Shown: positions 1,672 to 57,512 of the stretch, piece after piece
Position numbering within the stretch: position 1 is the stretch's first letter
How the letters are laid out: the number at the start of each line of letters is the position of its first letter
Origin: Candidatus Heimdallarchaeota archaeon
Lineage (GTDB): Archaea; Asgardarchaeota; Heimdallarchaeia; Heimdallarchaeales; Heimdallarchaeaceae
Direction: 5' to 3'
DNA length: 57,830 nt
NCBI GenBank assembly: GCA_023132955.1
Contig: JAGLXK010000282.1
Coordinates: 1 to 57,830 of the forward strand
Made by a program: the position numbers and the translations under genes
Notes under the pieces: model-generated
What the model saw: only the letters and a program-made list of their open reading frames with translations
Databases searched by the model: none
Told to the model about the DNA's origin: nothing

Positions 1672-3348
1672 ATGCTAGATACTGAAGAGTTTCAAAGAGC
1701 AAAGAAAAGAATACTTGAAAATAAAAGATTTTTACATGATTTGTCCTTTTTAGAAAATTACATAGATGATTTAGAACTTGTGTGTACTAATGAAAGATCA
1801 CTTGAATTAGCTTCTGTTCTGAATAGCATATTTATCAACATTGATGATATCGAAAGTGAAGATTTACGTTTAAAAATTCTAAATCTCTACTTTCAGCAAA
1901 TCTACTATTATGAGCAGAATCTAAATGAAGTCAAACAAATTCTAAAAAGAATGGAATCTATCGCCGCAAAATCTCAAAATGTAGAACATCTTGCTTATGT
2001 TTCTCTTTCAAAGTCTCTGGTAAAACGACTTGTTGGTTTAGTTAAAGATTCAAATTCACTAATATCTGATGCAATGAGTACAATAGAAATTAAAAGAGAA
2101 CAATACCCTGACACCTATTACAGAATTCTTTATACGTTTAGTATTTTCTCATGGATGAATAATAAAAATCACCTAGAAGTTATAAAAAATGTTGAAAAGT
2201 GTGTCAAATATTGGCATTCGAATCAAAATACTTTACCGATGATTACAGGGATTTTTAGATTGCTTAGATATTATAGTTTTTTAGGGAAAAAAGAAAAATT
2301 CAAACAGCTAATTTATTGGGTCTTTGAAGAAGAGAGAATGCAAGATAGCATACTTGACAGTCACTTTGCTTTACTCTACTCATTTGTTGGAAGGGTTTTT
2401 GCAATTAGATCTAGAATTGATGAAGCAATTCATTTTCTCTCAGATGCGTACAATAGAGTGAAAGAATCTAGCTCTCAAAAAACAAAGATGTATGAATATA
2501 TTGAGATTCTAAAGCTGCTATGCAGATGTTATGCTTTTCAAGGAAAATTTCAGTTGTCTTATGATACTTTAATGGAATTTTTAAATTTCATAGAAAGTGA
2601 TTTTGTGAAACAAAATTATCAAGGTATCAAAATGAAGAGATTATATTTTGGAGCATATTATACGCTATTATTTATTTTTGCTCAACTTGATATTAATATT
2701 GAAAATATTGAAGATGAAAAACTACGAAAGATTCATAACTATACAAAAACGCTTATTGAAAATTCTAATTTATCAGAAGAACTGCTATTTGATAATACAT
2801 TAGATGAACAACATCTAAATGAAATTAAGATTAAAAAAAGAACAAACCTTGATGAGTTTAATTTGCTGATTCATCAGCAATTACTTTCCTTAGAAGCCTT
2901 TACTGCTACAGATAAAACAATCGACAATCTCAGACTTATTAGAGATTATGTTTATAATCCATTATATGCAGATATTGTGCTTGGAAAAATTTATGTATCC
3001 ATTGGTAATTTCGAAGAATTTAGAGAAGTTGTTTTGAAAATAAGCGCACAAGAAGATCAAGCAGATACCCCTGTTCTAAAGTTGTGGATTAAACTATTCA
3101 AGTTGCTAAAAAGATACTTGGAAAATCCAGCAAATAAAGAGGTGTTAGAAGAATTTGGTGATTTGGCTATTTTTTGTAAAAATAACAATTTTATAAAAAT
3201 GGCAGAAGAGGTGAATCTTTTTCTAAAGTTAATAACCTCTACAAAAGCTATAGATTCTTTAGTTGATAAGTTTCAACAGACAGCTTTTGCTGATATTTAT
3301 GATAAACAATCAAAACAGATGGTTGTTGAATTTCTCGATAGTAAATGA
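1672..3348 (+). CDS. TPR-like alpha-solenoid protein (paralogue of 32296-33870)
   Basis: A 558-residue all-helical, charged protein with no signal peptide, membrane segment or N-terminal HTH. Helical pairs of TPR character recur through most of its length (for example around residues 75-130 and 230-330), suggesting a cytosolic solenoid that binds a peptide or protein. It aligns over its first half with the protein at 32296: '(E/R)L(V/I)C(T/A)NE(R/K)S', a shared YEQNL/HFKENL segment and '(R/E)MESIAAK/EMSQIATK'. The start ATG follows TTGTGGGGATAAAG. Downstream on the opposite strand lies a 20-residue microprotein gene (3398-3460). Two relatives of that microprotein sit next to the paralogue. 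Function is unknown; a receptor-like role for the short peptides is inference. Confidence 0.8.
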   Translation: MLDTEEFQRAKKRILENKRFLHDLSFLENYIDDLELVCTNERSLELASVLNSIFINIDDIESEDLRLKILNLYFQQIYYYEQNLNEVKQILKRMESIAAKSQNVEHLAYVSLSKSLVKRLVGLVKDSNSLISDAMSTIEIKREQYPDTYYRILYTFSIFSWMNNKNHLEVIKNVEKCVKYWHSNQNTLPMITGIFRLLRYYSFLGKKEKFKQLIYWVFEEERMQDSILDSHFALLYSFVGRVFAIRSRIDEAIHFLSDAYNRVKESSSQKTKMYEYIEILKLLCRCYAFQGKFQLSYDTLMEFLNFIESDFVKQNYQGIKMKRLYFGAYYTLLFIFAQLDINIENIEDEKLRKIHNYTKTLIENSNLSEELLFDNTLDEQHLNEIKIKKRTNLDEFNLLIHQQLLSLEAFTATDKTIDNLRLIRDYVYNPLYADIVLGKIYVSIGNFEEFREVVLKISAQEDQADTPVLKLWIKLFKLLKRYLENPANKEVLEEFGDLAIFCKNNNFIKMAEEVNLFLKLITSTKAIDSLVDKFQQTAFADIYDKQSKQMVVEFLDSK

Positions 3349-3397: not shown

Positions 3398-3460
3398 TTA
3401 AGGGTACCATTCAGGTGGTAAGCAATCATCGTCGTCTGTTGGGTCGTAATATCGCATCAT
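3398..3460 (-). CDS. Microprotein of the MM-YDP-DDD-PPxWxP family (20 aa)
   Basis: On the minus strand a 21-codon frame encodes MMRYYDPTDDDDCLPPEWYP. It is recognisable only because the two frames at 31656 and 32121 encode the same pattern (MM, YDP, acidic run, PPxWxP at the C terminus). The leader is also shared: CTATCCGAGATGAAATATGATG here against CTTTCCAAGAGTTGAAAC before ATGATG there. A TATA-like AGCTTAATATC lies at about 3504-3514. It converges on the TPR-like gene at 1672 and diverges from the ATPase at 3604. It has no signal peptide or membrane segment. Function is unknown. Confidence 0.65.
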   Translation of the reverse strand: MMRYYDPTDDDDCLPPEWYP

Positions 3461-31655: not shown

Positions 31656-31727
31656 ATGATGTACGAACAAAAATACGACCCAGAAGATGGAGATGAAAGC
31701 ATAACTCCCCCATTATGGCTCCCCTAA
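31656..31727 (+). CDS. Microprotein of the MM-YDP-DDD-PPxWxP family (23 aa, copy 1)
   Basis: 24 codons beginning ATG ATG TAC, with the body KYDPEDGDESITPPLWLP up to the stop. It aligns with the frame at 32121 without gaps over 23 residues. The first eight residues are identical, and differences after that are mostly E/D, L/M or synonymous. The conserved serine is AGC here and TCA there. Predicted cytosolic, acidic, no signal peptide. Leader GCTTTCCAAAGAGTTGAAAC is shared with copy 2. A TATA-like TAATATTATAG lies about 25 bases upstream. Function unknown. Confidence 0.7.
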   Translation: MMYEQKYDPEDGDESITPPLWLP

Positions 31728-31820
31728 TGTAGAATTTTCTACTTATTTTTTATTTTTATTTCATTTAATTGTTCCATTCTTTTTTTGGAAATTTATCCAG
31801 TTCGCAAAATGACGAGGTTT

Positions 31821-31856
31821 ATCTTACCACACAAAATTAAATTTACGTGGTAAGAT
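31821..31856 (+). repeat. 36-base hairpin repeat, copy 1
   Basis: ATCTTACCAC (31821-31830) and GTGGTAAGAT (31847-31856) form a perfect ten-base inverted repeat around a 16-base AT-rich spacer (ACAAAATTAAATTTAC). The same element, with the same arm length and the same spacer length, occurs at 33933 and 57437 in the same orientation. Confidence 0.85.
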
Positions 31857-31880
31857 TTTCCAGCTCATTTTCGTTGGCGA

Positions 31881-32024: not shown

Positions 32025-32120
32025 ACTTCCTTTTTCTTTCTCTTTTATTGTCACATTTTTCTTTTGGGTGTTTTAATAGTTTCATTCCACTATTAGAGTA
32101 ACCTTTCCAAGAGTTGAAAC

Positions 32121-32195
32121 ATGATGTACGAACAAAAATACGACCCTGACGAAGGAGATGATTCAATACTACCTCCTGCATGGATGCCAAACTAA
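32121..32195 (+). CDS. Microprotein of the MM-YDP-DDD-PPxWxP family (24 aa, copy 2)
   Basis: 25 codons starting ATG ATG TAC, with the body KYDPDEGDDSILPPAWMPN. It is a duplicate of the frame at 31656, 465 bases away, and sits 100 bases before the second TPR-like gene. The 20-base leader ACCTTTCCAAGAGTTGAAAC is nearly the same as in copy 1 and related to that of the copy at 3398. TATA-like GTTTTAATAG (about 32070-32079) would start transcription near 32100. No signal peptide. Function unknown. Confidence 0.7.
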   Translation: MMYEQKYDPDEGDDSILPPAWMPN

Positions 32196-32254: not shown

Positions 32255-32262
32255 TTTATAAA
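32255..32262 (+). promoter_or_regulatory. Promoter of the second TPR-like gene
   Basis: ACGGTTTATAAATG contains a clear TATA box, with a start near 32285 and a TTG start codon at 32296. Confidence 0.5.
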
Positions 32263-32295
32263 TGAATTTAAAGATTAGAGTGCGAGTGAGTAATA

Positions 32296-33932: not shown

Positions 33933-33968
33933 ATCTTACCACAGAAATTTAATTTTACGTGGTAAGAT
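33933..33968 (+). repeat. 36-base hairpin repeat, copy 2
   Basis: ATCTTACCAC (33933-33942), a 16-base spacer (AGAAATTTAATTTTAC), GTGGTAAGAT (33959-33968). It is followed by TTTCCCAGC, close to the TTTCCAGC that follows copy 1. It lies 60 bases after the TPR-like gene. Confidence 0.85.
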
Positions 33969-34078
33969 TTTCCCAGCGTAGTTTTGCTTGTAGTTTTGTT
34001 TCAAAGAGGGATTGGGACACTAAAAATCATATGCCGATAAAGTTAAAAATCAGTAGGCTCGGTCTAATACATACCTTT

Positions 34079-57438: not shown

Positions 57439-57472
57439 CTTACCACACAATAAATAATTTACGTGGTAAGAT
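57437..57472 (+). repeat. 36-base hairpin repeat, copy 3
   Basis: ATCTTACCAC (57437-57446), spacer ACAATAAATAATTTAC (16 bases), GTGGTAAGAT (57463-57472). Arms are identical to the copies at 31821 and 33933. It lies between glyA and the UbiD-family gene, away from any TPR-like gene. Confidence 0.85.
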
Positions 57473-57512
57473 TTCCACAACTTATGCAATTCGCTTGTTT
57501 TTTTCTTTTCTT

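Follow-up and report, generated by a model that had tools for sequence, protein, structure and literature searches.

Each of the two TPR genes in the window, the 57,830-nucleotide stretch of Candidatus Heimdallarchaeota DNA analyzed here, is accompanied by genes for short acidic microproteins, and we consider it reasonably likely that receptor and peptide form a switch of the RRNPP kind, though unrelated to RRNPP in sequence and with binding seen in silico. This reading rests on genomic pairing, coding constraint on the microproteins, co-variation of the partners, a Rap-like predicted fold, and predicted docking.

Both TPR genes, P0001 and P0002, were found as open reading frames where the initial annotation had placed them (Table 1). 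The shared N-terminal solenoid that it described was borne out as homology (21% identity over 470 aa, E = 2e-13), but the similarity reaches beyond the N terminus and covers most of the length. Pfam returned weak generic TPR matches for both proteins. As had been noted before, neither carries an HTH, judged by Pfam and by the all-helical TPR model of a close P0002 homolog; the TPR protein should therefore exert its effect through contacts with other proteins, in the manner of Rap. The N-terminal two-thirds of P0002 are variable and the C-terminal segment (approximately residues 420 to 515) is conserved. Gene conversion was rejected as the sole cause of this conservation, with four-fold sites in the segment 0.48 to 0.54 identical and those in the N-terminal part 0.40 to 0.43 identical. 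Since 76 to 83% of the amino acids of the C-terminal segment are identical, against 0.48 to 0.54 of its four-fold sites, the conservation is attributed mostly to selection. P0001-type genes recur next to a gene for a HerA-like ATPase (~945 aa). The source genome (3.58 Mb) contains three more TPR paralogs, one of them broken, with a microprotein beside each.

Table 1. Features of the TPR/microprotein loci, in window coordinates
Feature	Position	Strand	Description
P0001	1672..3348	+	558 aa, clade II TPR protein, candidate receptor; homology to P0002
Microprotein MMRYYDPTDDDDCLPPEWYP	3398..3460	-	20 aa; convergent orientation, 50 bp from the P0001 stop; YDP..PPxWxP motif
Microprotein MMYEQKYDPEDGDESITPPLWLP	31656..31727	+	23 aa, the more distant of the two copies 5' of P0002; motif
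TTTTAATAG	32071..32079	+	Likely TATA element of second microprotein; recurrent near -46 in 130 upstream regions
AGAGTTGA	32110..32117	+	Shine-Dalgarno-like; profile G-rich at -10 to -5
Microprotein MMYEQKYDPDEGDDSILPPAWMPN	32121..32195	+	24 aa, copy nearest P0002; motif
TTTATAAAT	32255..32263	+	Likely TATA element for P0002 alone; found repeatedly in front of clade I TPR genes
P0002	32296..33870	+	524 aa, TTG start, clade I TPR protein, candidate receptor

The three short open reading frames of the window belong to one family with the consensus M(M)...YDP-x(7-8)-PPxWxP(N), which agrees with the initial annotation that both proteins neighbor the same microprotein family. Nearly all of 126 distinct peptides were 17 to 27 aa long and acidic, and inspection revealed no hydrophobic stretch or secretion signal in them; both an intracellular ligand and a leaderless export route are thus possible. 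The conserved parts are YDP, acidic residues, and PPxWxP, which adjoins the stop codon. This core is near-invariant, and specificity-like variation is found ahead of PP and in the vicinity of W. Across 106 distinct cores, variation fell mainly at third codon positions (pN/pS of approximately 0.12), and 133 of 134 microproteins start with ATG. By these sequence criteria, the microproteins look translated, and such tiny genes beside TPR genes may have been overlooked by gene finders.

A descriptive profile of microprotein upstream regions (n = 130) was T-rich or TATA-like around -46 and displayed a GAGTGA-like site around -10. TPR genes have TATA-like boxes of their own. Just 5' of the TPR box, a TGCAAT direct repeat with 11-bp spacing was present in 12 of 61 TPR genes (e.g., L013, L078, and L107) and represents a possible operator. 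A tie between this repeat and the peptide ending (P = 0.008) was discarded, having been picked post hoc and being confounded by descent.

Twenty-three genomes of the source family (Heimdallarchaeaceae), all draft MAGs, were subjected to two independent whole-genome searches, one for the microprotein DNA motif and one with a TPR profile. A TPR place was located within 500 bp of 108 of the 121 motif matches, compared to 0.4% expected by chance, and a control pattern yielded 0 matches in the 23 genomes. The paired matches lay upstream on the same strand (86), downstream on the opposite strand (12), or downstream on the same strand (10); none of the 108 lay upstream on the opposite strand. Each full-length TPR gene of clade I or II that was examined (n = 73) had a microprotein within 500 bp; some of these regions were picked via the motif, and those picked by TPR similarity alone gave the same result. 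Full-length clade I/II genes that seemingly lacked the motif carry length or PPxY variants. Clade I/II TPR genes and the motif occur in the same 20 genomes, and neither occurs in the other 3. The initial annotation had proposed a functional pair, to be doubted if most family members were without a microprotein within 500 bases; both counts (108/121 and 73/73) support the pair.

One to three different microproteins accompany a TPR gene, and modules in arrays repeat every ~2 kb. The microprotein is located upstream on the same strand in clade I (P0002), whereas it is downstream and convergent in clade II (P0001), at a distance of 29 to 71 bp. Outside the window, complete [microprotein + TPR] modules of the P0002 clade were seen to have duplicated in tandem. 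The linked duplication that had been suggested to join P0001 and P0002 did not hold: the two genes fall into two old clades of the maximum-likelihood (ML) tree and differ in microprotein placement, so the window shows no single block duplication. At L062:6612-6972, L063:4782-4853, and L121:2470-2699, microproteins are kept although the fetched regions contain no TPR gene, intact or as a remnant, which suggests action in trans. Many broken TPR copies contain internal stops (e.g., L013:15922-17516), which points to rapid turnover by gene birth and loss.

The ML tree resolved clade I (58 rows), clade II (12 rows, including P0001; support of 100/100), and a main clade III group (6 rows), each with full support. 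Peptide type, defined by the residue before PP, clustered on the TPR tree (16 changes versus 40 when shuffled). Microprotein distance correlated with TPR distance (Mantel r = 0.64, P = 2e-4), and when microproteins were shuffled within genomes only, the observed r of 0.57 exceeded the shuffled value of 0.20 ± 0.04 (P = 3e-4). Linked descent alone could yield such co-variation, which consequently supports pairing rather than binding. No microprotein accompanies the divergent clade III TPR genes (L115 to L120 and L122); the small open reading frames considered there were dismissed, as no conserved intergenic one was present, only off-frame reading frames of neighbor genes. In L115, L116, L119, and L120, the clade III gene adjoins one for a 706- to 715-aa protein (metallo-beta-lactamase/beta-CASP in L116). 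In 227 genomes from across the phylum, the true motif did not occur outside the source family; seven one-mismatch matches in other Asgard families were rejected because the real motif was absent. Named relatives were all Candidatus Heimdallarchaeota or "Asgard group archaeon." The viral contigs searched contained none, leaving Heimdallarchaeota genomes as the host group, and the defense-system and phage families searched gave nothing convincing.

To model the pairs by AlphaFold2, natural in-frame read-throughs were used, comprising microprotein, intergenic linker (stops as G), and TPR gene, with alignment rows taken from the fetched loci and the window only. In the L076 read-through (L076:9773-11509; pTM of 0.85), the TPR part was well folded. 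Microprotein residues 11 to 20 reached a mean pLDDT of 86 and residues 7 to 24 exceeded 50, with the disordered linker (residues 25 to 52) below 50. For the L091 pair, the same block reached 52, with flanks at approximately 30 to 35. The docking, obtained with the two parts covalently tethered, was read from pLDDT and was strong in one of two models; as column conservation could raise pLDDT somewhat and coordinates did not enter the reading, predicted docking of the microprotein on its TPR protein is suggestive. The five best PDB matches of the L076 model were Rap structures that contain a pheromone peptide (Z of 23.9 to 24.6; rmsd of ~4 over ~325 to 339 residues; ~12% identity), followed by NprR (21.8), MalT (21.6), apo RapI (20.5), LGN (20.2), and AimR (~19). 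The L091 model matched Rap with a Z of 18.1, tied with separase, LGN, and other TPR-like proteins. A Foldseek comparison with viral structures retrieved only generic TPR proteins. Profile searches identified no RRNPP family, with weak generic TPR matches in Pfam and none in NCBIfam, and a PDB sequence search listed no Rap. Given the low identity (~12%), a fold and perhaps a mode of action are shared with Rap, while kinship is not proven.

We propose that the microprotein, 18 to 24 aa in length, is the ligand of the adjacent TPR receptor and would dock into its superhelix via the conserved YDP, acidic, and PPxWxP parts. The variable residues before PP and around W may set the fit to the receptor, whose long variable region would read the peptide. 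The probable role of the strongly conserved C-terminal segment is to contact a partner common to all paralogs, which the peptide would switch on or off. Real binding, the action as a switch, and the partner are what we infer here.

RRNPPA systems serve communication in gram-positive bacteria and their viruses; the HTH is optional among them, having been lost in Rap, and some peptides are leaderless (PMC12700828). The archaeal pairs share with Rap-Phr, NprR-NprX, and AimR-AimP a degenerate TPR superhelix that, as in Rap, does not need an HTH, a tiny peptide gene adjoining that of the receptor, and several paralogous pairs per genome. They differ in their archaeal host, in having no detectable sequence relation, and in their acidic peptides without signal sequence, which have promoter-like signals of their own and are encoded mostly upstream of the receptor, or convergently in clade II. 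The leaderless peptides of some RRNPP systems are likewise short and encoded beside a TPR receptor, but bacterial (PMC12700828). Because sequence match, signal sequence, and host group fail, we describe the pairs as working like RRNPP and do not file them there. A further difference from the RRNPP systems with leaderless peptides is that receptors of the Rgg group carry HTH domains. Several observations count against an RRNPP-like switch: the peptides exceed Phr and AimP ligands in length and acidity and have no export signal, TPR superhelices resemble one another so that MalT and LGN score close behind Rap, and the microproteins at L062, L063, and L121 have no nearby TPR gene. A wider version, in which leaderless peptides pass between cells in an independently evolved, multi-channel Asgard system of communication or recognition, with several pairs per genome and convergence on the Rap fold and binding mode, is a tentative proposal that we consider less likely than not.

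The main rival holds that the microprotein is an internal, constitutive structural subunit that folds or stabilizes the TPR superhelix without signaling. APC6-CDC26, a eukaryotic, constitutive complex in which a short peptide is likewise lodged in a TPR superhelix, was among the structural matches (Z of 19.2), and both the predicted docking and the near-invariant core would fit. The separate promoter-like signals of the two genes, the varying number (one to three) of different microproteins for each TPR protein, the solo copies, and the variable specificity-like positions speak against such a subunit, which we regard as rather unlikely.

That the short reading frames are leader peptides controlling TPR translation or transcription in cis appears quite improbable. 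A PP motif and a Trp-Xaa-Pro end beside the stop codon could stall ribosomes, and most copies do lie upstream on the same strand (86/108); yet the clade II reading frame follows the TPR gene on the other strand, TATA-like boxes of their own precede the TPR genes, conservation extends beyond the end to YDP and the acidic residues, and orphan copies exist. Least probable by our assessment are free intracellular competitors for TPR adaptors: kinesin light chain TPRs bind short Y-acidic/W-acidic motifs, to which the aromatic residue and acidic run of the microproteins and the aromatic in PPxW are analogous, and a KLC1-torsinA peptide complex was matched (Z of 16.3); those kinesin-bound motifs reside within cargo proteins and not in stand-alone microproteins. 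MalT, a sugar-responsive protein, resembles the receptors in the fold of its TPR region, which is part of an ATPase-HTH activator.

Heimdallarchaea are Asgard archaea, close kin of eukaryotes, and in the literature searched, peptide/TPR-receptor pairs were not reported from any Asgard archaeon. As the predicted structures resemble peptide-bound communication receptors of Bacillus and its phages, the pairs may constitute a home-grown archaeal peptide-switch system. If so, a lineage of Asgard archaea close to the eukaryotic root would possess a peptide-controlled switch, genes of 20 residues that escape annotation could form a large conserved family, and TPR protein and microprotein would provide a directly testable binding pair.

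Arrays at L013, L053, L055, L057, L059, L061, and L121 often share a block with PEPCK, coiled-coil, and pilin-like proteins, and with an ABC ATPase and FtsX-like permease, a possible exporter. In the window, an inverted-repeat element with the arm TTACGTGGTAAGATTTTCC was found at 31820-31861, 33933-33973, and 57459-57477, bracketing the P0002 region. With three copies of the arm against 0.01 expected, and recurrence in 25 fetched loci, it is maybe a dispersed repeat.
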